Source: Helicobacter brantae (lineage in GTDB: Bacteria; Campylobacterota; Campylobacteria; Campylobacterales; Helicobacteraceae). Taken from it: DNA of 64,000 nt. Under the pieces are notes generated by a model. It was given only the letters and a program-made list of their open reading frames with translations, was not told the origin of the DNA and searched no databases. The stretch is taken from positions 124,001-188,000 of the forward strand of contig NZ_NXLV01000002.1 in NCBI RefSeq assembly GCF_003364205.1, read 5' to 3'. The position numbers were made by a program, and so were the translations under genes. Shown here in pieces: positions 18,098 to 55,942 of the stretch; within the stretch, counting starts at the first letter, position 1, and every line of letters starts with the position of its first letter.

Positions 18098-19543
18098 ATG
18101 AATAATTATTCTCAAAAAATCAGGACGCTTCTTTGTGAGCTATCTATTGGACTTTATGAGAGAGAAGAGCATTTGAAACTTATTTTGCTTTCTATGTTTG
18201 CAGGCAAATCAATTTTTCTTTATGGACCTCCAGGGACAGCTAAGAGTTTGATTGCTAAGCGTGCTTCAATGGCTTTTAGTGTGAATGAAGATAAAAACAA
18301 GAAGTTTTTCTCATACCTAATGAATCGTTTTAGCACACCAGAAGAGATTTTTGGGCCAATTGATATTGCAAAACTCAAACAAAATCAACTCAAGCGTAAT
18401 ACAAGTGGGTATTTACCAACAGCATATTTTTGTTTTTTGGATGAAATATGGAAAAGCTCTCCTGCAATCTTAAATACTTTGCTTACTATCATCAATGAGC
18501 GAACATATCAAGATGGAAATGACAATATAAAAGTTCCACTCAAAGGTATTGTATGTGCAAGCAATGAGTTTCCTAAGGCAGATCAAGGGCTAGAAGCTTT
18601 GTATGATAGGATGCTTGTAAGACTTTGTGTCTATCCAATGCGGGAGAGAGAAAATTTTGAAAAGCTTTTGAGAAAAAAACAAGAAGAAAAACTTAAAATA
18701 TCAGATACTTTTAGTATCCAAGAATTAGAAGAGATTGCAACGCTAAGTCAGGAAGTAGATTTCTCCAAGGAAGCACTAGATACACTACACTTCATAAAAA
18801 TCAGACTTCAAGAAGGCAGGGGTGATGAGAATGAAAATAGTGGAGGCATTTATGTTTCAGATCGTCGTTGGGGGCAAATGGCTGAGCTAGTCAAAACTTC
18901 GGTTTTCTTGAGTGGAAGAGAGGAGATTATTCCTTCTGATTTATTATTGCTAAAACATTGTTTGTGGGGGAAACTTGAAGATAGGGAGAATATAGAAAAG
19001 ATCTTTGAAGAAGCACTACAAAATTTTGCTCCTGCAAAAGAGAATGAATATGTTCAAGTAAGAAAAGAATATCTAAATTTCAAAGCAGATTCAGATAAAA
19101 CTTTTTATAAAAGCGATGGAAGCTTTGACAGAAATGTTACTTTGGGGACAAAAAATCTTTATCTAAAACAATGCGATCAAATGGCAGATGATATTTCTAA
19201 GATTGTTGAAAAACTTAAGGATGAAAAACTGCTTCTATCATCCAAAAATCAAAATCTTTTTATTCCTCAAGAAGATTTTAATGTCGCATTTTTGGGAATT
19301 GATGAGCAGATATCAAAATACACACAGCTCCAACTCAAGATTCAAGAACTCAAATACAACATTGAAAATCAAAAAGATTTTCTAAAACAAAAAAAAGTTC
19401 AAGAAGCAAAAGGATTCAAAACAGCAATAGAAGAACCCAAATCAGAGGCCGACAAGATTCAAAATCAAATAGATGAAATATTGAATAAAAGAGGAATAGT
19501 ATACGGAGGCTTGTTGGGAAACATAGCTGACAAATTTCGATAA
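18098..19543 (+). CDS. ravA: MoxR-family AAA+ ATPase, RavA-like
   Basis: A 481-residue AAA+ ATPase. Walker A is GPPGTAKS (residues 43-50), Walker B is CFLDEIWKS (Asp115-Glu116) and the following PAILNTLLTIINERTY matches RavA closely. Sensor region LKGIVCASNE follows. The C-terminal third is a RavA-like helical/LARA-type region with long charged helices. RavA works with the VWA protein ViaA; in Escherichia coli the pair affects respiratory complexes and membrane stress. The partner gene starts 28 bases downstream. A palindrome and a TATAAT box precede it. The family is certain; its job here is not. Confidence 0.88.
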   Translation: MNNYSQKIRTLLCELSIGLYEREEHLKLILLSMFAGKSIFLYGPPGTAKSLIAKRASMAFSVNEDKNKKFFSYLMNRFSTPEEIFGPIDIAKLKQNQLKRNTSGYLPTAYFCFLDEIWKSSPAILNTLLTIINERTYQDGNDNIKVPLKGIVCASNEFPKADQGLEALYDRMLVRLCVYPMRERENFEKLLRKKQEEKLKISDTFSIQELEEIATLSQEVDFSKEALDTLHFIKIRLQEGRGDENENSGGIYVSDRRWGQMAELVKTSVFLSGREEIIPSDLLLLKHCLWGKLEDRENIEKIFEEALQNFAPAKENEYVQVRKEYLNFKADSDKTFYKSDGSFDRNVTLGTKNLYLKQCDQMADDISKIVEKLKDEKLLLSSKNQNLFIPQEDFNVAFLGIDEQISKYTQLQLKIQELKYNIENQKDFLKQKKVQEAKGFKTAIEEPKSEADKIQNQIDEILNKRGIVYGGLLGNIADKFR

Positions 19544-19570
19544 ATAAAATGATTTGGAGTAAAGTTAGCA

Positions 19571-21079
19571 ATGAATGTTTATATTGAAGGAGAAAATGAG
19601 CAGGTTCAGCAAAAGTATGATGAAGCACTTCGGGATTTTCAGAGACAATGTCAAGAGTTAGAGCATCCTTATCAGGAAGAAGAAGCAGAGCTTTATGGAC
19701 GCTCGTTGCGTCTTCAACTTCCCTCAGATAAAAAAATAACCCAAGAGGATATTGAGCTACTAGAAAAATATTATCCCAATCACCCTTCTTTGGCCTTTGC
19801 AAGAGAGAAGCTTCAAGCAGGAGAGAGTATAGAAAATCTTTCAGAACTTCGCAAATTTATTCATAACTCACATCAAGAGAGCTTATCTAAAAAAATCAGC
19901 GAATGGAGAGAGCAAGAGATTGCTAGATTGAAAAGAGAATTTGAAAAACGCATACAAGAATGGTTGGATCGAATTAGGCAGGCACGAGAGACAAAAAAGG
20001 CTTTGAGTGAAGCCCAAGAGTTGTTTGGAGATTTAGAACAAGATGCTCTTGAATCTTTGGATTTATCAAATCTAGGCGGTGGCAAAGAGCCTATCGATAA
20101 AGAAGGAAGGGTAAGAGGTGCAGGCAAAGAAAGAATGGACACAATCATTCGCCTCTTTAAGGAAATAAAAGATTCTTCATCGTTGCAAAAAATTTGTGAT
20201 TTGCTTGGAGAGTTAGAGAAAAAAGAGCAAGAAGAACGCACAAAAAAAATTATGGAGCAAAGAACCTATACTTTTAATGAAGAGATTCTAAGCAAAGAAT
20301 ATAAAGAAGAGATTGTTGGAGTGAGTTTGGGTAGAGATATAGAAAATCTATTGCCTCAAGAGTTGGGTATGCTAGATGACAATGAGCTTGAAATCTTGTT
20401 TTATCTAAAATTTATTCAAAATCGCTTGTTTTGTTTTGAAAAGGAGGGGTATTCTTCATTTTTGAGAGAAGAGCAGATTGAAGAAGAGGTGGAACAACAA
20501 GACGAAGATGAATCGCAAGATAAGGGAGCGATGATTATCTGTGTGGATACAAGTGGCTCAATGATGGGAGATCCAGAACTGATTGCAAAAGCCGCAACAT
20601 TGTTTTTGGCAGCAAAAGCAAAGAAGCAAAAACGCCCCTGTTTTTTGATCAATTTCAGCACTGAGATTGAGTGTATGGAACTTAGCAAAAAGGGAGGAAT
20701 CGTGGAACTTGAGGAGTTTTTATCTAAAAGTTTTAATGGTGGAACAACTATAGCTCCTGCACTAAAAAGAGGGATAGAAAAAATGAAAGAACCACAATTT
20801 GAAAAATCAGACTTGCTAGTTATTTCTGATGGTGGGTTTGGGCTAATATCTGATGGGTTGAGAAAAGAAGTGTTAGAACAACAAGAATTAGATAATCGCT
20901 TCTATCTTTTGGATGTATCTACTTTTGCTAGTGCAAATGATCTTTTTGACAAACATTGGAGATATGATCCAGCAACTCAAGAGATTGATACGCTTTATGA
21001 TAGAAAAAATGCAAAATCTACACAATATTCATCTGATAATGACACAACCTGTCGCACTGATCCTCTAAACTTCCCTTGA
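19571..21079 (+). CDS. viaA: VWA-domain protein, ViaA-like
   Basis: A 502-residue partner of RavA. A long charged helical N-terminal region (residues 1-310) precedes a von Willebrand A domain with the metal-ion site DTSGSMM (326-332), the second metal loop FNGGTTIAPAL and the third ISDGGFG. ViaA proteins bind the AAA+ partner through the VWA side. The last twelve codons are odd: residues 491-496 (DTTCRT) are encoded by palindrome copy B (21041-21053), so either the gene end has been remodelled by insertion of the element or the operator of the next unit overlaps this coding end. GTAAAGTTAGCAATG precedes the start; GGAG lies about a dozen bases upstream. Confidence 0.85.
   Translation: MNVYIEGENEQVQQKYDEALRDFQRQCQELEHPYQEEEAELYGRSLRLQLPSDKKITQEDIELLEKYYPNHPSLAFAREKLQAGESIENLSELRKFIHNSHQESLSKKISEWREQEIARLKREFEKRIQEWLDRIRQARETKKALSEAQELFGDLEQDALESLDLSNLGGGKEPIDKEGRVRGAGKERMDTIIRLFKEIKDSSSLQKICDLLGELEKKEQEERTKKIMEQRTYTFNEEILSKEYKEEIVGVSLGRDIENLLPQELGMLDDNELEILFYLKFIQNRLFCFEKEGYSSFLREEQIEEEVEQQDEDESQDKGAMIICVDTSGSMMGDPELIAKAATLFLAAKAKKQKRPCFLINFSTEIECMELSKKGGIVELEEFLSKSFNGGTTIAPALKRGIEKMKEPQFEKSDLLVISDGGFGLISDGLRKEVLEQQELDNRFYLLDVSTFASANDLFDKHWRYDPATQEIDTLYDRKNAKSTQYSSDNDTTCRTDPLNFP
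21039..21055 (+). promoter_or_regulatory. island palindrome copy B
   Basis: Core GACACAACCTGTC at 21041-21053 followed by GC. It lies inside the 3' end of viaA and its core begins 61 bases before the ATG of the small gene at 21102, the same spacing as in most other copies. It therefore probably controls the small-protein operon 21102-22443. Confidence 0.75.
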
Positions 21080-22554: not shown

Positions 22555-23427
22555 ATGAGTAAAGAACACGACAAACTTGCCACACGCCTTGCCCATACCA
22601 TCGCCAAGCTCAATGGTGGGGAACTTTTGAGTATCGCTGAACTTGCCAAAGAGTTTGGGGTGGATTCACGCACGATACAGAGGGATATCCAAAGACTTTC
22701 ATTCCTTCCCATAGAGAAGAAGGAAGGCAAACTTTTTTTGGCCTCTTATGCTCTAGGGAGTGTGAGCTTTGAGAATCTGAGGGATTTTTTGAGAATGTGT
22801 GGGATTGAAGAGCTTTTCCCTAGTCTTGAAAATAAGGCATTGCAAGATTTGTTTAACCCCAATCTCAACACTTCTCTTCTCATTAACCCTGCAAGTTTTG
22901 AAAAGATTCAGAGTAAGATTTTTGAAGAGCTTCAAGTGGCGATTTTGGAGCACAAGCTGATAAAGTTTCACTACAATCAAAAAGAAAGAAAAATCAAACC
23001 CTACAAACTCAAGCACTATCTAGGACGATGGTATTTGCTCGGAGTTGAAAATGAGAGTATTAAGACCTTTGCATTAGAGAAGATTAAAAATCTCATAATT
23101 TGTTCCCAAGAAGACTTCACTCCTGATGAAGAGCTAGTCAAAGAGATTGAAAAAAATGAATTTAACTTCCTCTCCAAAGATAGAAATGAGATTGTGCTCT
23201 ATATCGACAGCTATGCAATGCCTTACTTTGAGAAACGCAAGATACTGCCCAATCAAAAGATTCTGAGCAGAGATGAGAATGGAATGGAAGTAAGTACGCA
23301 ATCAAGCTATGATGAAGAGATTTTGCGAATCATTCAGCAGTGGATGCCTCATATTCTTATCCTCTCCCCTGAGAGCCTAAAAGAAAGACTCAAAGAGAGG
23401 GTGAGGGGGTATTTGGAGGTTTTGTAG
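22555..23427 (+). CDS. WYL-domain transcriptional regulator (YafY type)
   Basis: A 290-residue regulator. The N-terminal winged helix-turn-helix reads ELLSIAELAKEFGVDSRTIQRDIQRL (about residues 24-50). The WYL domain follows, with the IKFHYNQ strand, KLKHYLGRWYLLG and a C-terminal extension domain. WYL regulators (BrxR, CapW, DriD, PafBC) often control defence or DNA-damage genes and may sense nucleic acids. It is the only sequence-specific DNA-binding regulator recognised in the island and thus the best candidate to bind the nine palindromes; this is inference. The last 51 codons are repeated almost exactly in the chimeric gene at 25145-25534. Confidence 0.85.
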   Translation: MSKEHDKLATRLAHTIAKLNGGELLSIAELAKEFGVDSRTIQRDIQRLSFLPIEKKEGKLFLASYALGSVSFENLRDFLRMCGIEELFPSLENKALQDLFNPNLNTSLLINPASFEKIQSKIFEELQVAILEHKLIKFHYNQKERKIKPYKLKHYLGRWYLLGVENESIKTFALEKIKNLIICSQEDFTPDEELVKEIEKNEFNFLSKDRNEIVLYIDSYAMPYFEKRKILPNQKILSRDENGMEVSTQSSYDEEILRIIQQWMPHILILSPESLKERLKERVRGYLEVL

Positions 23428-23751: not shown

Positions 23752-23768
23752 GCGACAGGTTGTGTCGT
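23752..23768 (-). promoter_or_regulatory. island palindrome copy C
   Basis: On the minus strand ACGACACAACCTGTCGC; core at 23754-23766. The core begins 60 bases before the zinc-ribbon gene at 23706, which also lies on the minus strand. Orientation following the gene is strong support for a directional promoter/operator role. Confidence 0.8.
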
Positions 23769-23812: not shown

Positions 23813-23843
23813 TTGACAAACACTTGGGGGGGGGGGGTATAAT
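23813..23843 (+). promoter_or_regulatory. promoter with poly-G spacer before GTPase gene
   Basis: TTGACA (23813-23818) and TATAAT (23838-23843) are both perfect and are separated by 19 bases, of which 12 form an uninterrupted G tract (23826-23837). Loss of one or two G would give the optimal 17-18 base spacer. Such a tract is expected to slip in replication, switching the strength of this promoter. Confidence 0.8.
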
Positions 23844-23877: not shown

Positions 23878-23894
23878 GCGACACAACCTGTCAT
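23878..23894 (+). promoter_or_regulatory. island palindrome copy D
   Basis: GCGACACAACCTGTCAT; core 23880-23892. It begins 62 bases before the GTPase start and lies about 35 bases downstream of the poly-G promoter's TATAAT, so it would sit in the early transcribed region of that promoter as well as act as its own site. Confidence 0.78.
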
Positions 23895-23941: not shown

Positions 23942-25072
23942 ATGTCTGCAGAAAAAGATTTTTCAGCTGATGTGAGTGCAATTTTAGGGAAAGCATTTGC
24001 AGAATTTCAAAAGCATATGGAGGAAGACAAAGAGAGCAATCGTCTCAATGTTTTAGTGCTCGGCAAAAGTGGCGTAGGAAAAAGCTCATTGATCAATGCG
24101 GTTTTTGGAAAAGATATGGCAGAAACTGGGCAAGGAAAGCCTGTAACTAGGGGTTTTGAGAAATTTGGAGATGACAATGGCTTGAATATCTTTGATACAA
24201 GAGGAATAGAATCTGAAAATTTTGAAGAGACTATTTCAGATATTGAAAAATTCTTGCAGGAAAATGTTGCCAAGGGGAGTGCAGAGGACCAGATTCATAT
24301 TGCTTGGCTTTGTATCAATGAATCATTGAGAAGAGTTGAGGGCGAAGAGAGGGTTTTGGAAATACTAAAAAAAGAAAAGATACCAACAATTGTGGTGATA
24401 ACAAAAGCACAGCAAGACAAAGATGAAAAAGGTGAGAGTTTTAGAGAGAAGGTTATAGAAATTTTAAAAATCAATCATGAGGATTGTATCCGCACTCGTG
24501 CAGTGGAGGTTTCAGATGATGAAGGAGAAATCAAGAAAATTATGGGAATTGATACTCTTGTAAATAGAAGTTATCTTCTTCTTCCTGAGGGGAAAAAGAG
24601 TGCATTTGCTAAAAAGCAACACTATAACAAGACTATGAGAAGGGAGGCATTAAAAGAAGATGCTTTTTCAAAAGTAAAATATTATACAGCGGCAGCTTCT
24701 ACCGTAGCAGCAACCCCAATTCCTTTCTCTGATTTTGCAATTTTGCTTCCCACACAGGTTGCTATGATTTTGCATATCAGCAAGGTGTATGAAATGGAAA
24801 TCAATCAAGAAAATGCTACAAAACTCATTACTGCCCTAACTGCTGTAGCTGGAGCTGGATACGCAGTAAAAATGGGTGTAGGTGCAGTTCTAAAATTTAT
24901 ACCAGGATTAGGAAGTGTTGCTGGAGGGCTTATCAATGCCACTGTTGCAGGAACTACAACCAAGCTAATGGGTGATGCGTATATTGAATTTTTGGATAAT
25001 AAGTTTATGGACAATGTTTTGACACCAGATTTTGTCTTAAAAAATCTTCCAATTTTTATAGAACAAAAATAG
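23942..25072 (+). CDS. Era-like GTPase with C-terminal membrane (DUF697-like) domain
   Basis: A 376-residue protein. The GTPase domain has G1 GKSGVGKSS (residues 41-49), a switch region with PVTRGF, G3 DTRG and a divergent G4 TKAQ in place of NKxD. The C-terminal part (from about residue 235) has hydrophobic Ala/Gly-rich stretches: VAATPIPFSDFAILLPTQVAMI, AVAGAGYAVKMGVGAVL and PGLGSVAGGLINATVAG. This resembles DUF697/YcjF-type domains that follow such GTPases. It probably acts at the membrane. It is the gene behind the poly-G promoter and palindrome D, so its expression is likely switchable. Its pathway is unknown. Confidence 0.8.
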   Translation: MSAEKDFSADVSAILGKAFAEFQKHMEEDKESNRLNVLVLGKSGVGKSSLINAVFGKDMAETGQGKPVTRGFEKFGDDNGLNIFDTRGIESENFEETISDIEKFLQENVAKGSAEDQIHIAWLCINESLRRVEGEERVLEILKKEKIPTIVVITKAQQDKDEKGESFREKVIEILKINHEDCIRTRAVEVSDDEGEIKKIMGIDTLVNRSYLLLPEGKKSAFAKKQHYNKTMRREALKEDAFSKVKYYTAAASTVAATPIPFSDFAILLPTQVAMILHISKVYEMEINQENATKLITALTAVAGAGYAVKMGVGAVLKFIPGLGSVAGGLINATVAGTTTKLMGDAYIEFLDNKFMDNVLTPDFVLKNLPIFIEQK

Positions 25073-25144: not shown

Positions 25145-25534
25145 ATGAATCAAAACAAACAATACAAGCTTCAAAAAATGAAACTCTTCACAACCTCTCT
25201 GCTCTTTGTGGCAGGTGGGTTTCTGTATCTTTCTTTTGTGCTAGATTGCCATTGGCTTAGGGCTGTGAGTGAAGCGGCACTTATAGGAGGGATTGCAGAT
25301 TGGTTTGCAGTGGAGGCACTTTTTAGACACCCTCTAGGACTTCCTATCCCTCACACTGCTATTATCCCCAAGAGCAAAGATGAGAATGGAATGGAAGTAA
25401 GCACACAATCAAGCTACAATGAAGAGATTTTGCGAATCATTCAGCAGTGGATGCCCCATATTCTTATCCTCTCTCCTGAGAGCCTAAAAGAAAGACTTAA
25501 AGAGAGGGTGAAAGGATATTTGGAGACGATTTAA
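25145..25534 (+). pseudogene. DUF445-WYL chimeric gene
   Basis: A 129-residue open frame made from two neighbours. Residues 1-78 match the first 78 residues of the DUF445 protein at 37402 with few changes (signal-like hydrophobic start, then GGIADWFAV). Residues 79-129 match the last 51 residues of the WYL regulator at 22555 almost exactly. The joint lies at about 25378-25385, at AGATGAGA, which is present in both parents; a 14-base stretch around it differs by one base. It has a good ribosome site and palindrome E, so it may be expressed, but neither parent domain is complete. Most likely a recombination remnant. Confidence 0.85.
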
Positions 25535-26748: not shown

Positions 26749-26781
26749 TTGACAATGGGGGGGGGGGGATAAGGATAGAAT
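26749..26781 (+). promoter_or_regulatory. promoter with poly-G spacer before zinc-ribbon gene
   Basis: TTGACA (26749-26754), then an uninterrupted G12 tract (26757-26768), then TAGAAT (26776-26781). The spacer is 21 bases, too long for good sigma-70 activity, so the present tract length could be the weak or off state; loss of three to four G would restore 17-18 bases. The same layout precedes the GTPase gene. Confidence 0.65.
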
Positions 26782-26821: not shown

Positions 26822-26838
26822 GCGACACAACCTGTCGC
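26822..26838 (+). promoter_or_regulatory. island palindrome copy F (perfect)
   Basis: GCGACACAACCTGTCGC, with T before and A after, giving perfect 7-base arms around CAACC. The core begins 64 bases before the start of the gene at 26888. Confidence 0.8.
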
Positions 26839-27443: not shown

Positions 27444-27473
27444 TTGACAATAGCGGAGATTTATGTTTAAAAT
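27444..27473 (+). promoter_or_regulatory. promoter of the RelA-like operon
   Basis: TTGACA (27444-27449) and TAAAAT (27468-27473) with an 18-base spacer. The preceding bases TTTGCTCTAAAACC match those before the poly-G promoter at 26749, so this is a related promoter that lacks the G tract. Confidence 0.6.
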
Positions 27474-27611: not shown

Positions 27612-28817
27612 ATGAATGAGTATGATCCACGGGAGCAAGCCGAGCTGTTTGAAAAAGATAGAAAAAAATATCAATGTTTTGAACTTGTTTTGAGGGCTTA
27701 TATTGAGAAGGAGATTGCACAAAAGCTTAACGCAGAGAGCTTTTCAAAAACTCCCATTATCGAATCACGCACCAAAGAAGTTGAAAGCTTTAGAAAAAAA
27801 ATTTCACGAGAAGACAAGAGGGGGAAATACAAAAATCCGATTGAAGATGTTACAGATTTGGTGGGTCTTAAAGTGATGCCAATCTCATTGCCTGATGAGG
27901 AGATTGTCTATAATCTTTTAAATCAAAAATTTCAAAGCTACAAAATCCAAGAGCATTGCATAGACAAAACACATGAAAAGAAAGAAAATCGTCAGTTTGG
28001 ATATCTTGGTAGACATTTAGTAATCGAATGCAAGGAAGACTTGATAAAAGAACTAAAACCGATCTATAATGATCAAGGTGTTCAAAAACAGATTCAAGAA
28101 TATTTAAGGGGGGGGGGGAGTAAATATAGTCTAGAAGATTTTATTGGATTAAAAGCCGAAATCCAAATCAAAACTCTTCTTCAACATGTGTGGGCTGAGA
28201 TTGAACATGGAGCAAGATATAAGCCTGGAGAAGAGCTTTCAGATGAGAAAAGCAGAACCTTTGACAGATTAGCTGCACTTGTAGAGATCGCTGATGATAT
28301 GTTTAAGGCTCTTATCCAAGAAAGCAGAGAAAAAGAGCGAAAACTCCACGAAAATATAACCACCAAGCATAATGCACCTAAAGAGAGGGTGCAAAACAAA
28401 GAAGGTTTGTCAGAGGTTTTGAATAGTGAAAATATCCACTCTTATCTAACCCACAAAACAATACAGCAACATTTCTCAAATATCAAATCCCAATATTTTC
28501 AAATCGATAATGAAAAACCTGATTTTATCGGTTTATCTTTTGTGGAATTGCTCAAGATTGTTGGATTGAAATGTATTGGAGATTTAGATGAGCTTTTGTT
28601 TGATGATAAACTACTTCAAGAGATGATTAACTGCATAGAAAACGATCATCAATCCAAAAGGAAAAATCACACGATTTATCCTCAAATTCTCATTCTTCGG
28701 ATTTTAATCTGTCTAAAGTATCCCAATCAGATTGACAAAATCAAAGACAAACGCTTTGTCGATCCTCGTTTATTGGAAAATATCAAAAATTACACCATAC
28801 AAAAGGAGTTAACATGA
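27612..28817 (+). CDS. RelA/SpoT-like nucleotide synthetase
   Basis: A 401-residue protein with a (p)ppGpp-synthetase-type domain: SRTKEVESFRKK (residues 52-63), DVTDLVGLKVM (79-89), GYLGRHLVIE (130-139) and EIQIKTLLQHVWAEIEH (183-199). It lacks the HD hydrolase and TGS domains, like small alarmone synthetases, but has a unique C-terminal region (260-401). A G11 tract (28108-28118) encodes Arg166 and three Gly inside the catalytic domain; a change in tract length would shift the frame and stop the enzyme. ATG 27612 is chosen because GGAGGGA precedes it. The product nucleotide is unknown. The next gene overlaps by four bases. Confidence 0.82.
   Translation: MNEYDPREQAELFEKDRKKYQCFELVLRAYIEKEIAQKLNAESFSKTPIIESRTKEVESFRKKISREDKRGKYKNPIEDVTDLVGLKVMPISLPDEEIVYNLLNQKFQSYKIQEHCIDKTHEKKENRQFGYLGRHLVIECKEDLIKELKPIYNDQGVQKQIQEYLRGGGSKYSLEDFIGLKAEIQIKTLLQHVWAEIEHGARYKPGEELSDEKSRTFDRLAALVEIADDMFKALIQESREKERKLHENITTKHNAPKERVQNKEGLSEVLNSENIHSYLTHKTIQQHFSNIKSQYFQIDNEKPDFIGLSFVELLKIVGLKCIGDLDELLFDDKLLQEMINCIENDHQSKRKNHTIYPQILILRILICLKYPNQIDKIKDKRFVDPRLLENIKNYTIQKELT
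28108..28118 (+). repeat. G11 tract inside the RelA-like gene
   Basis: Eleven uninterrupted G in the coding strand (AGG GGG GGG GGG AGT). The reading frame is open at this length; +1 or -1 changes would truncate the protein within its synthetase domain. Typical of contingency tracts in Campylobacter and Helicobacter. Confidence 0.85.
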
Positions 28818-29734
28818 ACAGGCAAGAAATTATAAACAATTATGATGAGAATCAAATATTGAGTAAAGAGGAATATGAGCAATATTTTAATGAATGCGAA
28901 GAAACGATCAGGAGTATAAAGCTTCACGCTATTAAGGCAATAGAGAAGAGAGATAAGACGATAGCCAATCTTGAAAAGAAACTGAATGAAGAGCAAGGTG
29001 TAGTCAATCGACAAATAGAAGGGATAAGATCCAAAACAGACAAGATTGGTTTGATTGAGGAGGTGCTTAAGGAGCTTAAAGATCTTGTTGAAAACAAAAA
29101 CAATAGTGAGCTAGTTTCGCTTAAAAAAGCACTTGAAGGCAAAAAGATAGAACTAAAAAACGAGCAAGAAGCTCATTCTAAACTGAAAACAGATTGTGAA
29201 GAAAAAGAAAAACAATATGACGACAATAAGAGGGAGTGGGAGCAAAAAGAAAAAGCTCTTAATGAGCGGATTGAAGCTTATGAGCAAATTGAAGATGAAA
29301 AAAACAACATCGAAGCAGATTTGAAAAATCTAAGAGAAGAAATCCATTATGAACTTTATGAGCAGTATTGCAATCTTCCGAGTGATTTTAGGAATGAATT
29401 TACCTATATTGTTCCTATAAATATTTTTGCATTCTTGCAAACAAGTGGAAGAGAACGCATATTGCAAGAACTCCATACTTTTATTCATGGGGCTATAACA
29501 AACAATCAACCATGGGTAGAGGATTTGAAGTCTTTTTTTGACTTATTGTTTAAAGCAAGTCAAACATACAATCCATCACTCAAACGTCTTGAAACAAAAG
29601 AGGGGGATGACTACAATAGTAAAGAGATGATATCTATAAAGGGTGAATTAATTCAGAGAAGAGTTGCTGATGTCCTTTTTCTAGGATACAAGCAGGACAA
29701 TATGACAAAAGAATCATTGGTGGAGGTAAAGTAG
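28814..29734 (+). CDS. coiled-coil protein with GrpE-like C-terminus
   Basis: A 306-residue protein. Residues 20-190 are heptad-rich and highly charged, a long coiled coil. The C-terminus (VADVLFLGYKQDNMTKESLVEV) resembles the beta domain of GrpE, where VxEVLxxGYxxxxxxxRxAxVxV is usual. GrpE is the nucleotide-exchange factor of Hsp70, and the very next gene is a divergent Hsp70. I therefore read this as a dedicated exchange factor or co-chaperone; the similarity is by eye and weak outside that stretch. It overlaps the RelA-like gene by four bases (ATGA), so the two are co-translated. Confidence 0.6.
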   Translation: MNRQEIINNYDENQILSKEEYEQYFNECEETIRSIKLHAIKAIEKRDKTIANLEKKLNEEQGVVNRQIEGIRSKTDKIGLIEEVLKELKDLVENKNNSELVSLKKALEGKKIELKNEQEAHSKLKTDCEEKEKQYDDNKREWEQKEKALNERIEAYEQIEDEKNNIEADLKNLREEIHYELYEQYCNLPSDFRNEFTYIVPINIFAFLQTSGRERILQELHTFIHGAITNNQPWVEDLKSFFDLLFKASQTYNPSLKRLETKEGDDYNSKEMISIKGELIQRRVADVLFLGYKQDNMTKESLVEVK

Positions 29735-29775: not shown

Positions 29776-31929
29776 ATGTCAGAGCAAATAAAACAAATTG
29801 ATGAGATTATTCTTCACAAGAATGAGCCGTTGGCAAAGGAACTAGAGTCAAAACCCGATGAGATTGCACAAGTCTTGCTTAATGTTGAGAAAATTGTAGC
29901 AAATTCATTGACTTATCCACAAAGCAGATTGACAGATCCAAATTTGGGACATTGGGATATTTATCGTGATAGCGAGGAAAATAAATCAACCATCTCTATT
30001 CCTCTATCACGCCCATTGATGGCAAGAAGCCCAAATTTAGATATCAAAAAAGGAGTGGTTGCAATTGATTTTGGAACGAAAAGCACAACCGTGGCAGTTA
30101 TGGATGAAAGATCTGATAAGCGATTGTTGAGAATTGGTGCTGGAGAGTTTCTGAAAGATGATGCAACAAAAGAGGATTATGAGAACCCAACTTTTATGTA
30201 TTTTGCGGATATTGATTCCTTTTGGAATGATTATCATTCTGGGAAATCTAGACCCCTTACTAGATGGAGAGATTTGAGCGTTGCCTATGAACCCAAAAGA
30301 GAATTTGATAGAAGCAGAGATGGATCTCGTTTTTATCAATATTTTGCAGATTTGAAACAATGGGCAAAAAAGAATACTAAAACACCCACAAACATTGTAG
30401 ATACAAGAGGTATAAGACCTTTAAAGAATTTCGTAGATTGTGGGGAAAAGAACTTCAATCCAATCGAAGTGTATGCCTATTATATTGGACGATATATCAA
30501 TAATATGATGGATGGAATTTATCTACACTATGTTCTTTCTTATCCTGCAAAATATCCCAAAAATGTTAGAGAGAAGCTCAAAGAGAGTTTTGAGAGAGGA
30601 TTGAAAAAGGCCATTCCTTATGCTGTGCTCACTCATCCTGAGAATGGAAAAGACTTTGAGGTGGAGATTTCTGTAAGTGAACCTGCTGCTTATGCAATCA
30701 GTGCTTTGAAAGAATATGGTTTTTATTCATCCAAAGCATTTGAAAAAGATAAAGAGCATTATTATGGAGTTTTTGATTTTGGGGGAGGAACAACCGACTT
30801 TGACTTTGGAGTGTGGAGAAAGTCAGAAGATCGTCGCTATAGTGTGGAGATTGAACATTTTAAATCTGGAGGAAACAATGAGCTTGGGGGAGAGAATCTG
30901 CTTGAATTGTTGGCTTATAGGGTTTTTGAAGATGAAGTCAATCAAAAAGCAATGAAAGAGAAGGGGTGTTCTTTTTCAGAACCTGAAAATTATAAAGTAA
31001 AAGTTCCGGGAGGACTAGAAACTTTAATTTCTTCATCCCAACAAGCTCAAAAAAATACAAAAATTCTAATGGAATTTTTGAGGTCTTTTTGGGAAAATGC
31101 TCATATTTTTGGAGAAAAAACAAATGGTGCATCTTCAGAATTTGAAACAGGGAGTTTGCAATTGACACTAGTGCCAGAAGAAGGAGTCGATTGTGTTGTA
31201 ACTCTTAAATTTGATGCACAAGCAATGCTAAAAGTGCTTGAAGAAAAAATCCAAGAAGGTGTAGATCAATTTTTTAGCATATTTGAGATTGCGTCAGAAA
31301 AAATGCCTGGGTTAAAGAAACTCCATATTTTTCTTGGGGGAAACTCTTCGAGATCACGTCTAGTAGGCGAGGCTTTTAAGAGAGCAATTGAGGACTATGC
31401 CGATCTTGGAGACAAACTCGAGTTTGTTTTGTATCCTCCACTTGGAACTCCAGAATCGGAGAAACTAAGAGAAGAGCTTGGATTAAATAAAGGCACAGAA
31501 GATTATAGTCGTCAGGTAACTTGCAAATCTGGTGTGGTTTTTGGATTGCTTGATGGGTTACCATCAGGAAAAATCAAGGTGATCCCAGAAGTGAGTCAGG
31601 ATGAGGAGGCAAAATTTGAGTTTTATCTAGGTGATGAGGATTTTGGTTGTTTTGAGATAATTTATGATCCTAACGAGGCAGTAGGAAGTGAAAAATATTG
31701 CATCAAGGATTATGTAGGTGACTTTATTTTGTATTACACCAAAGATCCAAGAGCAGGTGAAGGAGGACTTGGAATTGGAGAGACAAGAAGGATGCCTATA
31801 AGTTTTAATACAGAGCAAGAGGATGGAGGGGTTTATGTTGAGATTCTTGGTCCAAGCAAGATTAGGTTGATAGCTAAGAAGAAAGATGGAGAAATCTTGG
31901 AAATCCAAGAGTTTGATCTAGAAGATTAA
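29776..31929 (+). CDS. divergent Hsp70-like ATPase
   Basis: A 717-residue protein of the actin/Hsp70 fold. An N-terminal extension of about 90 residues precedes phosphate-1 loop VVAIDFGTKSTTVAV (near 92-106). Phosphate-2 is GVFDFGGGTTDFDFG (near 330) and the adenosine motif is HIFLGGNSSRSRLV (near 516). The C-terminal part (from about 600) is short and beta-rich, possibly a small client-binding domain. It is not DnaK: the N-terminal extension, insertions and the C-terminal region differ. With the GrpE-like neighbour it would form a private chaperone pair. ATAAGGAGTTAAAATG gives the start. Client unknown; the next gene product is a candidate. Confidence 0.8.
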   Translation: MSEQIKQIDEIILHKNEPLAKELESKPDEIAQVLLNVEKIVANSLTYPQSRLTDPNLGHWDIYRDSEENKSTISIPLSRPLMARSPNLDIKKGVVAIDFGTKSTTVAVMDERSDKRLLRIGAGEFLKDDATKEDYENPTFMYFADIDSFWNDYHSGKSRPLTRWRDLSVAYEPKREFDRSRDGSRFYQYFADLKQWAKKNTKTPTNIVDTRGIRPLKNFVDCGEKNFNPIEVYAYYIGRYINNMMDGIYLHYVLSYPAKYPKNVREKLKESFERGLKKAIPYAVLTHPENGKDFEVEISVSEPAAYAISALKEYGFYSSKAFEKDKEHYYGVFDFGGGTTDFDFGVWRKSEDRRYSVEIEHFKSGGNNELGGENLLELLAYRVFEDEVNQKAMKEKGCSFSEPENYKVKVPGGLETLISSSQQAQKNTKILMEFLRSFWENAHIFGEKTNGASSEFETGSLQLTLVPEEGVDCVVTLKFDAQAMLKVLEEKIQEGVDQFFSIFEIASEKMPGLKKLHIFLGGNSSRSRLVGEAFKRAIEDYADLGDKLEFVLYPPLGTPESEKLREELGLNKGTEDYSRQVTCKSGVVFGLLDGLPSGKIKVIPEVSQDEEAKFEFYLGDEDFGCFEIIYDPNEAVGSEKYCIKDYVGDFILYYTKDPRAGEGGLGIGETRRMPISFNTEQEDGGVYVEILGPSKIRLIAKKKDGEILEIQEFDLED

Positions 31930-31939
31930 GGAGGAGTAT

Positions 31940-32647
31940 ATGGGACTTTTTGACACAATTTGTAGTATAGGATCAAGTATAGTTAGTGGGGTAAAAAGTG
32001 TGTGCTCAGCTATTGGCAGTGCATGTTCAAGCATTGGGGGAGCGATAGCAAGTGGGATTGGGACTTTGGCTCAAAAAATCTTAGAGCTTCCTGTGAAGCC
32101 CACAATCGTTGATGCTATTATTGGTTTGGTTAAAGCAGTTGCAGAGCTTTTGATGGATTCTCCAAAAGATGAAAAAGTAGAAGATTTGGGAGCTGCAATG
32201 AAGCAGGCTGAGAAAAAACCAGAAGATTTTGATAGTATCAATGACTATATTGACTACTTGCGTGAGGAGATAAAAAAGGGCAATGTCAAGCTTGGACAAT
32301 CAGAGGGGATTGAATTGTTTTCTGAAAAAATGATGGGTGTGGCATTGCTAAGTGAAGGACTTGGTGAAAAATATGGAATGAAACCAAGTGCAGAGTTTTG
32401 GGGAGAGATGGGAAAAAAAGTGCATGATGGGAAGCTTGAGCCCAAAGAGGTAGGATCCATTATCCAAAAAGCCAGTCAGGCTGAAGTGCAACTCGATAAT
32501 GTTTCCAATTATCTCAAGGGAGAAGAAGTGAAAGACAATAAAAAGAGTGAAGTTTCTTCTGTCATCATTGGTGGATTAAAAGAGAGCAACCCATCTTTGA
32601 GTGATTTGGAAATTGATAAGCGTTTCAATGAATTGATTAAGCAGTAG
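31940..32647 (+). CDS. protein with glycine/serine-zipper N-terminus
   Basis: A 235-residue protein I do not recognise. The first 45 residues are rich in Gly, Ser, Ala, Ile and Cys (GSSIVSGVKSVCSAIG, GGAIASGIGTLA), like a glycine-zipper helix that could insert into or lie on a membrane; there is no cleavage site. The rest is acidic and helical. It starts ten bases after the Hsp70-like gene with AGGAGG upstream. It could be a membrane-active client or effector held by the chaperone pair; that is a guess from context. Confidence 0.6.
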   Translation: MGLFDTICSIGSSIVSGVKSVCSAIGSACSSIGGAIASGIGTLAQKILELPVKPTIVDAIIGLVKAVAELLMDSPKDEKVEDLGAAMKQAEKKPEDFDSINDYIDYLREEIKKGNVKLGQSEGIELFSEKMMGVALLSEGLGEKYGMKPSAEFWGEMGKKVHDGKLEPKEVGSIIQKASQAEVQLDNVSNYLKGEEVKDNKKSEVSSVIIGGLKESNPSLSDLEIDKRFNELIKQ

Positions 32648-32735: not shown

Positions 32736-33242
32736 ATGCAAAGAGTGATTAGAATGGCTTTTGTGCTAGTGGATTCAAAACTTCGTCTTTTTAAGATTGA
32801 ACATCAAATGGAAGAAGTCAAAAAAGAAGGGGAGAGGCTCATTTGCGTTGATGAGAATTTTTGGGAATGGTGGAAGCAGGAGATGGATTATGTCAAAGAT
32901 GATGTGTTGGATCTTTGCTTTGTTTGGGATAAACAAGATGAGATTTTGCATAATGGTGAATTTTTCTCTGCAGAGTTACAATCTGACTTTTGGAATCAAA
33001 GAGAAGTTTTAAATCTACTAAGAGATCTTGGTATTGATGCTAAGGTGGTTGATAGTCGTGGAAAACTGCTTAAAGATTCAAAAAAATCTTCACTGCAACT
33101 TTATAGCAATATCGTGTGGAGTGAGTTCATTCAACAGCCTTCAAAACAAAAAGAAGTCATCTGCAAGGACGATGAAGGGAAATCCCCAGCTTGGTGGTAT
33201 TTTGAAAACAAAAGAAGAGAAAGAGAGCGAAGGAGAGGATAA
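32736..33242 (+). CDS. hypothetical protein, 168 residues
   Basis: Soluble, Trp-rich protein (WEWWKQEMDYVKDD, PAWWYF) with a very basic C-terminal tail of alternating Arg and Glu. I do not recognise the family. AAGGAAG precedes ATG 32736; an in-frame ATG six codons later is possible. Its stop overlaps the start of the HerA-like ATPase gene (TAATG), so the two are translationally coupled and their products may form one complex. Confidence 0.6.
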   Translation: MQRVIRMAFVLVDSKLRLFKIEHQMEEVKKEGERLICVDENFWEWWKQEMDYVKDDVLDLCFVWDKQDEILHNGEFFSAELQSDFWNQREVLNLLRDLGIDAKVVDSRGKLLKDSKKSSLQLYSNIVWSEFIQQPSKQKEVICKDDEGKSPAWWYFENKRRERERRRG

Positions 33243-36200
33243 TGGAAGCTTTAGGACAAAAATATCTCAATCACAAAAAACTTTTAATAAAACAAGAAAA
33301 ACAGATTGATGTTCAAGATATTGTTCTATATCAAGTAGAAAGCATTACTTATGAAGAAGAAGCTCCCAAAAGAGAGGCTTTAGAAAATGTTTTGAGTTCT
33401 TTGAGGATTGAGGGAATCAACTTTATTTATCTTATTATAGGAGACGAAAATGGAACAAACTTTTATTATGGTGTTTCAAGAGATCTTAATGCTTCAAAGT
33501 CAGAATTGAGTATCAATGAGATAGGGGAGTTTATTTTAAAACCCAGTATCAAAGGGAACTTTAGAGGTTCTCAAGTTCGATTGATTAGAGGGGAGGAAAA
33601 ACGCAAAATCTTAAATCAACTTAACTTCAAATGTTCTAGCATGATTGAGGGAGTTCCGGGGGTCTTAAAAAAAGAAGATGATTTTCAAGGAAGCGATAGA
33701 TTAGTTGATGTGATGAGTGGGTCTCATTTTGGTTTTATGATCATTGCTTCTTTGCTTAATGATGAACAATTAGAAAAGATCGAAAGAGGCATTTTCGAGC
33801 TTTACAATGCATTCTCTCCTCAAGCCAAGTGTAGCAAGCAAGAAACACAATCTACAAATACAGGTTCAAATACAAGTGTTACAAATACAACTAATACAAG
33901 CACAACCAATGGCACCAACACAAGTAAAAGTGAGGGGGGTAATGAAAGCCAAACGCACGGAGAGAGCAGATCACACTCATCTCAAACCACACACTCTCAA
34001 GCAAAATCAGAAACTGCAAATAGTGGCGAGTCAACAACACAGGGCAAAAATTTCAATACTTCAGTAAGTACTTCAGAAGGAACTACTGAATCAAGTGGGA
34101 GCACTTATAGCAAAGACAAATCTTCAAGCAACAGTACAAGCAATGGAACCAACTCTAGCACCACAACAAGTGCAGGAAAAACTCAAAGTAATTCTAGGAC
34201 AGAAACTACATCTCAAACAGATTCAACGACAACCAATCAATCCAAGAGTATCGGAAAAAGCAAAACGGAAACAAATGGGAGTAGCAAAAGCAAAACAGAA
34301 GGCACAAGTCAGGCTCAAACACAGGGGGAAAGTACGGGGAGCTCTACTTCTGAATCTATGACAAAGGAATTTTCAAACAAAGAAATTCAAGACTGGGTCA
34401 AATATATTGATGAAATTTTACTTCCAAGAGTAGATTATGGAAAGGGTAAGGGAATGTTTGTGGGGGGTATGTTTTGCTTCTCAGATTCTGAGGCTGTGCT
34501 TAAAAAACTTGAGAATACAGTTATCTCTCTTTTTAGTGGAGATATTGGCAATAAAGTTCCTTTGAGGGCTTTTTTGCTCAAGGATATAAAACAGATTGAA
34601 ATGATAAAAAATCTTCAACTTCCAAGATTTGATCAAAAAACAAAAAACCAATCTAGCGAGATTCTTTATTCTCAATGCGATGAGTTTTTGGGTAATTGGA
34701 TGAGCTCCAAAGAACTTAGTTTGATTGCAGGATTGCCCAAAAAGGATGTGGTGGGATTGGAGTTGAGGGAAGAGGTGGAATTTGGTTTGAATTTTCCACA
34801 GGTTAGCGAAGATGAGGGACTCACACTTGGCAAACTTATGCAAAGCGGAAATATCACTAGCAGAAATGTCAATCTTGCATACTCCAATCTTGATAAACAC
34901 ATTTTCATCACAGGTGTTACAGGGAGTGGGAAAACTACGACTTGCCAAAATATCCTTATCCAATCCAATCTCCCCTTTTTGGTGATTGAACCTGCAAAAA
35001 CAGAGTATCGAATCCTCAAAGAAAGATATGAAGATTTACTAATTTTCACGCTTGGCAAAGATACCACAGCCCCATTTAGGCTCAACCCCTTTGAGTTCTT
35101 TCCTCATGAAAGTATAACTTCAAGAGTGGATATGATCAAAGCAAGTATAGAATCATCTTTTGATATGGAAGCAGCTATCCCTCAAATTATTGAGAGTGCA
35201 ATCTATGAGATTTACAAAGATTATGGGTGGAATATCGCAACCAATCAAAACGAGATTTATGGAGAAAATGCCTTTGATGATGGAGTTTATTCTTTTCCCA
35301 CTTTAGAGGATTTAGTAAAAAAAGTTGAAGTGGTTGTGAAAGAGCAGGGATTTGATGAGCGATTAAAAAATGACTATATTGGCTCAATCAAAGCGAGATT
35401 GAATGGCTTACTTGTAGGCTCAAAAGGTTTTATGCTCAATACCAAAAGATCGATTGATTTTAGAAAATTGCTTAATCAACGCGTAGTTTTGGAGATAGAA
35501 GAGATTCGCAATGGAAGTGAGAAATCTCTTGTGATGGGATTTGTGCTAAGCAATGTGATAGAAGCAATCAAGGCAAATTTCCTCTCAAGCACTCAAAAGA
35601 GTGGAGTAAGACATATTATTCTTATTGAAGAAGCTCATCGATTGCTCAGTAAATTTCAAGCAGGTGATAGCCCCAACAAAAAACAAGGGGTTGAGGTTTT
35701 TGCAGATATGCTTGCTGAGATAAGAAAATATGGGGAATGTTTGATGATAGCAGATCAAATCCCCAACAAACTCACTCCTGAAGTGCTAAAAAACACAAAT
35801 ACCAAAATCGTTCATCGACTTTTTGCAGAAGATGACAAACAAGCAATCGCAAATACAATGGCACTTGAAGAAGAACAAAAAGAGTTTTTAAGCAAACTTG
35901 ATGCAGGTGTGGCGATTGTGTTTTCAGGAGGTTTCAACAAGGCGATTGCCACAAAAATCTCCCAAACTTCCAACACCACCTCAGATCTTGTCATTACCGA
36001 AGAGGAGTTGCAAAAAAATGTTTATAAATTCTATGCTGATTGTTATAAAAGTGGCGTGATTGTAGGCTCTTCTTGGCTAGAGAGCGTGGGGGTGGAAGAG
36101 ATTGCTATCTTGCTTGATTTGCAGAGAAGAGGTGGGCTAATGAGAGAGATAAAAAAACACTGGGAAGCAAAGCAAAAAATCGCCCCCAAACTCTTAAAAA

Positions 36201-36373
36201 GTCTTCAAAGATTTGCTGATAAGTTAAGTGTAGATTTTCTTGCAAAGTATTTTATCGTGGAGAATGCGATCAGTGAGACGAAGCTAGAATATGCAAAAGA
36301 ATTTTTGGCAAAATATCTTAGTAATAGTTTGTGCGAATCTGATGTGAGATATTTTAATGATGAGCTATTTTAG
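33242..36373 (+). CDS. HerA/VirB4-like ATPase with long Ser/Thr/Asn/Gln-rich linker
   Basis: A 1043-residue protein. Residues 1-195 form an alpha/beta N-terminal domain. Residues about 200-375 are extreme low complexity, almost only Ser, Thr, Asn, Gln, Gly and Lys in imperfect repeats, expected to be disordered. The rest is a HerA/VirB4-type (DUF87) RecA-like motor: Walker A GVTGSGKTT (558-566), LVIEPAKTEYR shortly after, Walker B ILIEEAHRLL (Glu796-797), sensor-like VHRLFAEDDKQAI. These motors move DNA or proteins through hexameric pores. It is coupled to the gene before and followed four bases later by the patatin gene. Substrate unknown. Confidence 0.8.
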   Translation: MEALGQKYLNHKKLLIKQEKQIDVQDIVLYQVESITYEEEAPKREALENVLSSLRIEGINFIYLIIGDENGTNFYYGVSRDLNASKSELSINEIGEFILKPSIKGNFRGSQVRLIRGEEKRKILNQLNFKCSSMIEGVPGVLKKEDDFQGSDRLVDVMSGSHFGFMIIASLLNDEQLEKIERGIFELYNAFSPQAKCSKQETQSTNTGSNTSVTNTTNTSTTNGTNTSKSEGGNESQTHGESRSHSSQTTHSQAKSETANSGESTTQGKNFNTSVSTSEGTTESSGSTYSKDKSSSNSTSNGTNSSTTTSAGKTQSNSRTETTSQTDSTTTNQSKSIGKSKTETNGSSKSKTEGTSQAQTQGESTGSSTSESMTKEFSNKEIQDWVKYIDEILLPRVDYGKGKGMFVGGMFCFSDSEAVLKKLENTVISLFSGDIGNKVPLRAFLLKDIKQIEMIKNLQLPRFDQKTKNQSSEILYSQCDEFLGNWMSSKELSLIAGLPKKDVVGLELREEVEFGLNFPQVSEDEGLTLGKLMQSGNITSRNVNLAYSNLDKHIFITGVTGSGKTTTCQNILIQSNLPFLVIEPAKTEYRILKERYEDLLIFTLGKDTTAPFRLNPFEFFPHESITSRVDMIKASIESSFDMEAAIPQIIESAIYEIYKDYGWNIATNQNEIYGENAFDDGVYSFPTLEDLVKKVEVVVKEQGFDERLKNDYIGSIKARLNGLLVGSKGFMLNTKRSIDFRKLLNQRVVLEIEEIRNGSEKSLVMGFVLSNVIEAIKANFLSSTQKSGVRHIILIEEAHRLLSKFQAGDSPNKKQGVEVFADMLAEIRKYGECLMIADQIPNKLTPEVLKNTNTKIVHRLFAEDDKQAIANTMALEEEQKEFLSKLDAGVAIVFSGGFNKAIATKISQTSNTTSDLVITEEELQKNVYKFYADCYKSGVIVGSSWLESVGVEEIAILLDLQRRGGLMREIKKHWEAKQKIAPKLLKSLQRFADKLSVDFLAKYFIVENAISETKLEYAKEFLAKYLSNSLCESDVRYFNDELF

Positions 36374-37401: not shown

Positions 37402-38595
37402 ATGAATCAAAATAAACAACAGGCACTTCAAAAAATGAAACTCTTCACAACCTCTCTGCTCTTTGTAGCAGGTGGGTTTCTCTATCTTTCTTTTGTGCTA
37501 GATTGTCATTGGCTTAGGGCTGTGAGTGAAGCGGCACTTGTAGGAGGGATTGCAGATTGGTTTGCAGTGGTGGCACTTTTTAGACACCCTCTAGGGCTTC
37601 CTATCCCTCACACTGCTATTATCCCCAAGAGCAAAGATGAGATAGCCAAAAACTTGGGACAATTTATCAAGCTTGAGTTTTTCAGCAAAGAGAATTTACG
37701 CAAATCCACTTTCCTAGAAAAACTCAGTCTCAAAAAAATCATCGAGAGCTTTATCGAGGGCAAAAGCACCTCATTTTCTCTCCACGCCCTCACCCAAGCC
37801 CTAGAGAGCAAAATCCCCACTTTATGTGAGAAAATCAAAGATGAGGAGAAAAATCTAAGATTTTTAGAGCAAGTCAATTTCTCCAAGCTCATCGGAGAGG
37901 GGTTGCACTCTATCCAAAATAGTGCTTCTTATGATGAGATTGTCAAAGAGCTTGTAGAGATTATTGATGAGAAGTTTCAAGGACTAAAGAGCAAGCTAAG
38001 GGAAGAGTTGGTGGGAGATTCTTGGATAAACAAAGGTATAAGCTTTCTCACAAGTTATGATGATAAAGTCATCAATGGGATTGAAGAGTATATTGACAAG
38101 CTCAAAAACCCTAGTGCAAAAGAACTCAATCAACTCAAACTTGCTTTGCAAGACTATATCCACAAGCTTCTCCACGATGAAAGCACTATCAACTCTGTTA
38201 ATGCCAAGATCAAAGGAGCACTGAGTTCCGAGACGAGTGCCAAAATTCTTACAGCAGTTTTAGAGCATATTCAAGAGAATAAAATCATCTCTACTACAAT
38301 TGCTGACATGCTCAAACGCTCACTCCAAAACTTCTGCAATGATACTCGCAAACTCGTTGCCACAGAGCGATGGATAAAAAATAAGATTGTCAATATTGTA
38401 GGAGATTATAGTGATGAGATTGCAAGATTTATTGAAAACACAATCAAGTCTTGGGATAGCCAAGAGATTAGCCAAAAGCTAGAGCTTGAAGTGGGAAAAG
38501 ACTTGCAATTTATTCGAATCAATGGAATGCTAGTGGGTGGAATCATCGGTGGGGTGATTTATGGGATTGAGAGATTTTTTGCTCTAATCTCTTAA
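37402..38595 (+). CDS. DUF445-family membrane protein
   Basis: A 397-residue protein of the DUF445/YjiN family. One membrane segment lies near residues 12-32, followed by the conserved ALVGGIADWFAVVALFRHPLG stretch, then a long helical middle part and a second membrane segment at the end (MLVGGIIGGVIYG). The function of the family is unknown; envelope location is inferred. It follows the patatin stop directly, with AAGGAGTAAAA. The first 78 codons are duplicated in the chimeric gene at 25145-25534. Confidence 0.85.
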   Translation: MNQNKQQALQKMKLFTTSLLFVAGGFLYLSFVLDCHWLRAVSEAALVGGIADWFAVVALFRHPLGLPIPHTAIIPKSKDEIAKNLGQFIKLEFFSKENLRKSTFLEKLSLKKIIESFIEGKSTSFSLHALTQALESKIPTLCEKIKDEEKNLRFLEQVNFSKLIGEGLHSIQNSASYDEIVKELVEIIDEKFQGLKSKLREELVGDSWINKGISFLTSYDDKVINGIEEYIDKLKNPSAKELNQLKLALQDYIHKLLHDESTINSVNAKIKGALSSETSAKILTAVLEHIQENKIISTTIADMLKRSLQNFCNDTRKLVATERWIKNKIVNIVGDYSDEIARFIENTIKSWDSQEISQKLELEVGKDLQFIRINGMLVGGIIGGVIYGIERFFALIS

Positions 38596-38847: not shown

Positions 38848-38913
38848 ATTAAAACCTCACTTTGGGTATTTCATTGCGATAAAATGTCAATCAAAATACT
38901 CAAAGGAAAAATT

Positions 38914-40011
38914 ATGCAAAATCTCCTCATTCTCTTCAACCCCTACTATCAAAAAGATGTGATTGATTCTCACATTGCCATTCTCAAAGACAGAGGGGCA
39001 GTAGGATTTGGCAAAATCAAATCCAAGCTCACCTCTCTCTCAACCCCAAAAGAGCTAGATTGGGACTCTCTCTCAAGTGTTTCTTCTACCTCTCCACTTC
39101 AGCTATTTCTCACAGATTATTCCTCTCTTTTTGTAGCCAAAGTTGTGAGCGTGAGTGCAGAGATTGATCCCACTCTTGCTCCAAGCTATTATCAAGAAAA
39201 GAGCCTAGAAGTGGAAGCTTGGTTTGTGATAGCTGATATGATTGAGCTAGTGCATAAGGATTTTGAGAAAATTAGAGATCTATTCCTTGCAAATTTCACA
39301 ACCCCAGATTATGGCAATCACACTTATGCAATTTATGGCAATTCTTATCAATATCCCCTTAAAGTGGAGATGAAAAATGAGATAAACTATTTTACTTCCA
39401 ACGAGCTTTTTTATCCCAATATTTATAAATCTGATGAGTTTCTCTCTATCAAAAACAATTTGATTTCTTATGTTTTTGGAGATTTGGGGTATCGACTTCA
39501 TCCTGAGAGCTTGGAAAATTTAGTCTTTGCTGAAATGGAGTTTGAGAAAAATAAAGAAGATAAACTTTATGATTTTACTGGAGTTGCAATGCGGTATGGA
39601 AAAGCACTTGAAATGGAGGCGTATTGGTTCTTTAGTTTCTTCCTATCTTTATTGATGCGCAAAGAAGAAAGGGTGTCCAATGTGATTTTTTTGGCATATG
39701 GTCAAAAAACTAAAGTTTCGGATTTTAAAAAAGTTTATCCAGGTTTGGGGGCTTATAAGGTTTTGTTAGCTAATTCGATTATTGCAAAGACAATTAGGGA
39801 TAATCAGCTTAAATGGGCTTCAAAAAATATAGTTGATAATATCACGATAATTCAAAGAGTTAGAAATCGTGCGGCACATCAAGGAAAAATATCCTTGAAT
39901 GAAATAGAAAAAATGAGAAATGCAATTTTGGGTATTGGTGAAAATCAGGTTATTTTTGATTTTCTTAGAAAACGTTTAGAGATCAATAAAATAAATATGG
40001 GGAATAATTAG
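38914..40011 (+). CDS. hypothetical protein with possible HEPN domain
   Basis: A 365-residue soluble protein. The N-terminal two thirds are not recognised. The C-terminal helical part contains Arg317-Asn-Arg-Ala-Ala-His322 in QRVRNRAAHQGKIS, which fits the R-x4-6-H motif of HEPN ribonucleases often found in defence and toxin systems; the surrounding sequence is helical as needed. ATG 38914 (AAAGGA upstream) is preferred to ATG 38884. GC and codon use become less AT-rich in the N-terminal half than in the C-terminal half, which may mean a fusion. The HEPN call is tentative. Confidence 0.55.
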   Translation: MQNLLILFNPYYQKDVIDSHIAILKDRGAVGFGKIKSKLTSLSTPKELDWDSLSSVSSTSPLQLFLTDYSSLFVAKVVSVSAEIDPTLAPSYYQEKSLEVEAWFVIADMIELVHKDFEKIRDLFLANFTTPDYGNHTYAIYGNSYQYPLKVEMKNEINYFTSNELFYPNIYKSDEFLSIKNNLISYVFGDLGYRLHPESLENLVFAEMEFEKNKEDKLYDFTGVAMRYGKALEMEAYWFFSFFLSLLMRKEERVSNVIFLAYGQKTKVSDFKKVYPGLGAYKVLLANSIIAKTIRDNQLKWASKNIVDNITIIQRVRNRAAHQGKISLNEIEKMRNAILGIGENQVIFDFLRKRLEINKINMGNN

Positions 40012-54836: not shown

Positions 54837-54879
54837 CGCGATTCTAGTGGAATCAAAAAAATAAAAAGAAAGGAAAAAA

Positions 54880-55815: not shown

Positions 55816-55816
55816 T

Positions 55817-55874: not shown

Positions 55875-55942
55875 CTAGGAACCTTTGAGAGGAATTATAA
55901 CAAAAATGTTTTTGAATTTTAGAGATAACACAAGGATTAAAA

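Follow-up and report, generated by a model that had tools for sequence, protein, structure and literature searches.

The relA operon and its G11 tract

The window, a 64,000-nucleotide stretch of the Helicobacter brantae genome, carries a six-gene operon headed by relA, a gene for a RelA_SpoT-domain protein that contains a run of eleven G.

27612 to 28817, + strand: relA, RelA_SpoT-domain gene, 401 aa, operon gene 1 (PF04607; catalytic motifs in alignment)
28108 to 28118, + strand: coding G11 tract, Arg166-Gly169 of the RelA-like protein
28814 to 29734, + strand: coiled-coil protein with a weakly GrpE-like C-terminus
29776 to 31929, + strand: divergent Hsp70/actin-type ATPase, 717 aa (weak HscA/DnaK matches, phosphate-binding motifs conserved)
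31940 to 32647, + strand: small conserved operon protein, in 1-3 copies in relatives
32736 to 33242, + strand: 168-aa conserved operon protein
33242 to 36373, + strand: HerA/FtsK-type ATPase with a Ser-rich region (NF033849; PADLOC HerA and mad8)

A preliminary description of this DNA reported eleven consecutive G in an open frame, covering Arg166 to Gly169 of a RelA-like enzyme. The run is present in the sequence, the frame across it is open (ORF 27612 to 28817, 401 aa), and the residue numbers are correct when counted from the ATG at 27612. That ATG is preceded by a GGAGG Shine-Dalgarno sequence seven bases upstream; an alternative upstream ATG at 27591 would yield a 408-aa relA product. The RelA-like assignment also holds, with a match to PF04607 RelA_SpoT that spans the tract (E=1.8e-10) and scores 41.5 bits, above the Pfam gathering cut-off of 27.

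In the alignment, the RelA-like protein has the active-site motifs R-x-K, D-x-x-G, GY...H and E-x-Q, with conservative deviations (R to K in DLVGLK and EIQIKT; S to G in GYLGRH). Judged by these motifs, it may be an active pyrophosphokinase. The RelA homologue of G058, a genome from the same family as H. brantae, lacks the R-x-K motif, and together with the deviations this makes enzyme activity uncertain.

The name GrpE-like given earlier to the product of 28814 to 29734 did not hold up well. The C-terminus of this product resembles the GrpE of H. brantae itself only weakly (hhalign P 0.02, probability 2%); PF01025 (GrpE) gave no above-cut-off match in the window protein and matched 2 of 10 homologues, with a best E of 0.03. 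The product of 29776 to 31929 had no Pfam HSP70 match above cut-off and weak matches to HscA, DnaK and mortalin. By its sequence, this protein is Hsp70-like and divergent.

The operon lies in a probable conflict island

The operon sits in a 22-kb island that also holds a WYL regulator, RavA-ViaA, a GTPase, a patatin and a PUA/HEPN-like gene.

18098 to 21079, + strand: RavA-like MoxR ATPase and ViaA-like vWA protein, at the left end of the island
22555 to 23427, + strand: WYL-domain transcription regulator (PF13280, HTH_11)
23942 to 25072, + strand: DUF697 GTPase, downstream of promoter P1
26888 to 27178, + strand: Zn-ribbon protein, downstream of promoter P2 (sub-threshold Zn-ribbon matches)
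38884 to 40011, + strand: PUA-like (weak) protein with an invariant RNx3H HEPN-type motif

The order relA, coiled-coil, Hsp70-like, small, 168-aa and HerA-like is common to G058 and to G387 and G179, two genomes of the same order labelled Campylobacter-like. WYL homologues adjoin the operon in G387 and G179, and PUA/HEPN-like homologues lie at it in G387, G179 and G130. The distribution is patchy: relA matches were found in 4 of 121 genomes of the H. brantae family and 3 of 153 genomes of the family of G387, and the operon is absent from all five genus-mates. The RavA-like gene adjoins rpoD in H. brantae and in none of these five. In G048 the operon locus is split over contigs, and in G117 relA is a relic with seven stops. 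PADLOC returned partial matches to HerA, mad8 and a candidate PDC-S33. The composition of the island and the patchy distribution of the operon point to a conflict module, and its role is probably anti-phage. The RelA-like protein of such a module would arrest growth, as a pyrophosphokinase acting on nucleotides or tRNA.

Inside the island, 25145 to 25534 is a chimeric remnant, a recombination scar in which a 241-nt copy of the 5' end of the DUF445 gene (37402 to 37642, 95%) is joined to a 154-nt copy of the 3' end of the WYL gene (23265 to 23418, 93%). Downstream of the island, 51610 to 58867 holds a set of type I restriction-modification genes (M, S, R) that looks complete.

A palindrome accompanies the island promoters

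Three promoters and the palindrome copies beside them are located as follows.

23753 to 23767, - strand: palindrome copy, 45 nt upstream of the P1 -35
23813 to 23843, + strand: P1, promoter of the GTPase gene, with G12 (23826 to 23837) in a 19-nt spacer
23879 to 23893, + strand: palindrome copy, downstream of P1
26749 to 26781, + strand: P2, promoter of the Zn-ribbon gene, with G12 (26757 to 26768) in a 21-nt spacer
26823 to 26837, + strand: palindrome copy, downstream of P2
27385 to 27399, - strand: palindrome copy, 44 nt upstream of the relA (P3) -35
27444 to 27473, + strand: P3, relA promoter, TTGACA-18-TAAAAT, no homopolymer

The palindrome, CGACACAACCTGTCG, has nine copies in the window at up to three mismatches, against 0.3 expected, and all nine fall within 17998 to 40120. 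Outside H. brantae, the relA-bearing loci of G387, G179, G565 and G117 (loci L041, L073, L074, L102) carry it, and it is absent from those of G058 and G048 and from Hsp70-only loci. The WYL protein is a likely candidate for binding it. The palindrome might be a recombination site and not an operator, with recombination scars lying nearby, but at three promoters, including that of G179 (38 nt), it stands 38-45 nt upstream of the -35, a spacing that fits an operator better.

With an exact core, the palindrome is found at two further places in the genome. Copies outside the window lie between a HipA-like kinase gene and an AAA ATPase operon (L071:3805; C22:121806) and directly upstream of a very large autotransporter-like ORF (L072:2883; C33:106884). 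The last part of the ViaA-like ORF (21040 to 21079) reads through a copy of the palindrome, suggesting that another sequence has replaced the original C-terminus.

The operon could instead be a stress or surface chaperone system, in which the RelA-like enzyme stochastically tunes the ordinary stringent response. In favour of this, proteins of the Hsp70-like and RelA types serve in stress responses elsewhere, one sister genus often has Hsp70-like homologues where relA is lacking, and one palindrome copy precedes an autotransporter-like gene. We regard this as rather unlikely, because presence in few, scattered species fits conflict systems better, and the HerA-type ATPase, the WYL, PUA/HEPN-like and HipA-like neighbours and the PADLOC matches favour a conflict system.

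The G11 tract is far longer than expected by chance

In the window, G8 has 14 overlapping matches against 0.5 expected, and none of 100 shuffles reached 14. Counted by length, G/C runs number 72 at five nucleotides, 15 at six, none at seven to ten, one at 11 and two at 12. Since runs of 7-10 are missing while three reach at least 11, the long runs form a separate class. The G11 tract is far beyond chance length, and it lies in a coding frame, one of the two settings (the other being a promoter) in which such a homopolymer marks a contingency locus.

Similar tracts abound in the rest of the genome. The 1.73-Mb genome has 308 overlapping G9 matches, from which we estimate about 90 tracts of at least nine G; among the matches listed, most are 11-14 long and 11 is the commonest length. 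All five genus-mates are likewise rich in G-tracts. Sequencing reads of H. canadensis show length variation in all of its listed G9-G16 tracts, for example over 9-14, 9-12, 10-12 and 9-13 in G11 tracts (PMC2823697). By analogy, slippage of the G11 tract is very likely and is predicted for H. brantae. A second isolate was sought in genome and viral collections: protein comparison yielded no relative, and the sequences flanking the tract had no match.

If the tract were effectively fixed at G11, it would be a plain stretch of Gly codons. GGG is a common Gly codon in the window (126 of 457 counted) and the reading frame is open, but this explanation is very improbable given the lack of G/C runs of 7-10 beside runs of 11-12, the variation of comparable G11 tracts in H. 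canadensis reads (PMC2823697), and the alignment, in which homologues have no conserved Gly run at the tract position.

Elsewhere in the genome, G-tracts occur in pairs of opposite orientation, separated by about 115-147 nt (C1:48779/48902, C9:1/149, C9:33258/33388, C11:1/147 and C11:23477/23624). Two of these pairs sit at contig ends, and one tract of the C1 pair falls inside an autotransporter-like ORF, in its 5' end. In a sister genus, a genome lacking relA has G16 (L082:6779-6794) and G15 (L082:6988-7002) directly upstream of a coiled-coil/Hsp70-like pair.

Slippage is predicted to truncate the RelA-like protein

Slipped-strand mispairing at replication would turn G11 into G10 or G12. The computed products are 173 aa for G10 and 170 aa for G12, and G8 and G14 retain the relA frame. 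The earlier proposal that a slip of one base truncates the protein is thus upheld as a prediction: the products would end after about 170 residues, ahead of the catalytic Glu strand. A one-unit slip is therefore predicted to alter expression, as expected of a contingency locus.

The truncated forms lack EIQIKT (Glu183) and WAEIEH. The Glu, Trp and His of these motifs are invariant among homologues in the alignment, and the two motifs form part of the synthetase active site in known RelA enzymes. With both motifs lost, the G10 and G12 proteins should be inactive. The loss of the enzyme would be reversible, with G8, G11 and G14 as ON states.

The tract had also been placed inside the synthetase domain. 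It does fall within the PF04607 span, but the alignments put it in an insertion of variable length that holds no conserved motif. This loop appears to lie between GYLGRHLVI (the G-loop strand) and AEIQIKT, with a length that varies among homologues. In Campylobacter-like homologues and in solved GTP pyrophosphokinase structures the aligned loop is much shorter.

Translational coupling to the next gene, a further suggestion of the preliminary description, is possible since the relA stop and the following start overlap as ATGA (28814 to 28817). However, coupling is not needed, as an AGGAG stands 5 nt ahead of the ATG of ORF 28814 to 29734. The premature stops of the G10 and G12 forms lie 680-691 nt upstream of that ATG. 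Given the AGGAG, lost coupling or polarity may lower expression of the next ORF and should not abolish it. A switch inside relA could let relA toggle more or less apart from the chaperone and ATPase genes.

Homopolymers occur in the relA promoters of relatives

We compared the apparent relA promoters of relatives.

G387: TTGACA-A-G16-TGA-TATAAT, spacer 20
G179: TTGACA-AT-G9-ATTTG-TATAAT, spacer 16
G565: TTTACA-A13-CGA-TAAAAT, spacer 16

All three Campylobacter-like relatives with relA have a homopolymer between the -35 and -10, and its length differs among them, in a comparison across species. G/C runs of seven or more are scarce in the 19-kb loci, with two in G387 and one in G179. With so few long runs, one at the relA promoter in both genomes is unexpected by chance. 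A runs are generally less mutable than G runs, and the A-tract of G565 is included as support with that reservation. A G9 abutting TATAAT in G130 was left out as support, there being no clear -35 at a normal distance. G058 has the operon with no tract at relA.

A homopolymer in the spacer of the relatives' relA promoter would switch the whole operon. In H. brantae, P3 is one of the best-scoring promoter sites of the region and is free of homopolymers, and the two G12 spacers belong to P1 and P2, which are related promoter cassettes. The homopolymers in the relatives' relA promoters and in these two island promoters are what the present analysis adds to the preliminary description. The simplest reading of these sequences would be that slippage control was kept while its site moved; the move would have been from promoter to coding sequence.

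A different explanation is that the tract is a mutational hot spot with no adaptive role, either tolerated noise or the onset of relA pseudogenisation. G-tracts are common in the genus, with the roughly 90 similar ones in this genome, the G117 relA is already a relic, and the tract seems to occupy a dispensable loop. Yet relA is intact here, and homopolymers recur where one operon is controlled, in the relA promoter of three relatives and as G12 in two island promoters. These observations make a hot spot unlikely.

Long homopolymers can also cause transcriptional slippage. Ribosomal or transcriptional slippage on G11 would produce full-length and truncated protein in constant proportion with no heritable switching, and two protein forms are indeed predicted. 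Against this stand the other tracts of this class that lie in promoter spacers, where nothing but the length of the DNA matters, and we consider this explanation highly doubtful.

Taken together, these data suggest that the G11 tract probably serves as a contingency switch at the level of translation, acting on the first gene of a WYL-regulated, most likely anti-phage conflict operon. More tentatively, the Campylobacterota operon of RelA-like, coiled-coil, Hsp70-like and HerA immunity genes under WYL regulation may have come under slippage control repeatedly, giving mixed populations with and without a costly abortive-infection effector. To our knowledge, DNA methyltransferases account for most known cases of phase-variable immunity genes. 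If the reading is true, a RelA-type effector under slippage control, with a switch site that differs among operons, would amount to bet-hedging of costly growth arrest. ON and OFF clones of one strain would differ by a single base, a ready experimental handle, and the conserved palindrome and WYL regulator would delimit a small, directly testable regulon.

Comparison with known systems

RelQ/YjbM, FaRel2 (PMC11559606) and CapRel (PMC9712102), the last an anti-phage effector, share the RelA_SpoT pyrophosphokinase domain and most active-site motifs with the RelA-like protein described here. Unlike small alarmone synthetases and toxSAS, this protein has 401 aa, with no domain assigned to its C-terminal half, and its gene heads a six-gene Hsp70-like/HerA operon. 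The toxSAS and CapRel synthetases are paired or fused with an antitoxin (a pseudo-zinc-finger in CapRel), whereas no obvious antitoxin is seen here. Plasmid and phage collections yielded only distant RelA-domain proteins, and neither an Hsp70 nor a HerA gene is listed in four plasmid relA neighbourhoods (Limnohabitans, Cetobacterium, Bacteroides, Tsukamurella). One viral contig, L112, carries a RelA fragment in an unrelated gene context and was set aside.

In the sections drawn on here, the account of chaperone-based NTP-dependent conflict systems (PMC7159879) describes MoxR-vWA systems and GTPases with HSP70 and GrpE. The island resembles them in its MoxR-vWA pair, GTPase, Hsp70-like protein and possible GrpE-like protein. 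Those systems are built on GAP1/DO-GTPase or VMAP-type cores, and a RelA-domain effector is not named in these sections; no GAP1 or VMAP-type component is recognised among the island's Pfam hits, although Pfam may not cover these domains. Thus RelA-type immunity effectors and Hsp70/GrpE/GTPase/MoxR-vWA conflict systems have already been described, and the present combination was not found in the sources and sections considered.

As a mechanism, poly-G phase variation is ordinary in Helicobacter and Campylobacter, and the unusual part here is its target. Known poly-G contingency loci of these genera (PMC2823697; PhasomeIt, PMC6321876) have the same tract type, length class and placement in coding and promoter sequence. 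The table of phase-variable genes of H. canadensis (PMC2823697) contains no RelA-like enzyme, and the word pyrophosphokinase is absent from the main text of PhasomeIt (PMC6321876). In our literature search, of incomplete coverage, no RelA-type enzyme turned up as a reported target of slippage. Phase-variable restriction-modification (mod phasevarions, PMC3230613) likewise places a defence-type enzyme under slippage control; there the target is a DNA methyltransferase that alters the methylome, whereas here it is a RelA-like enzyme.
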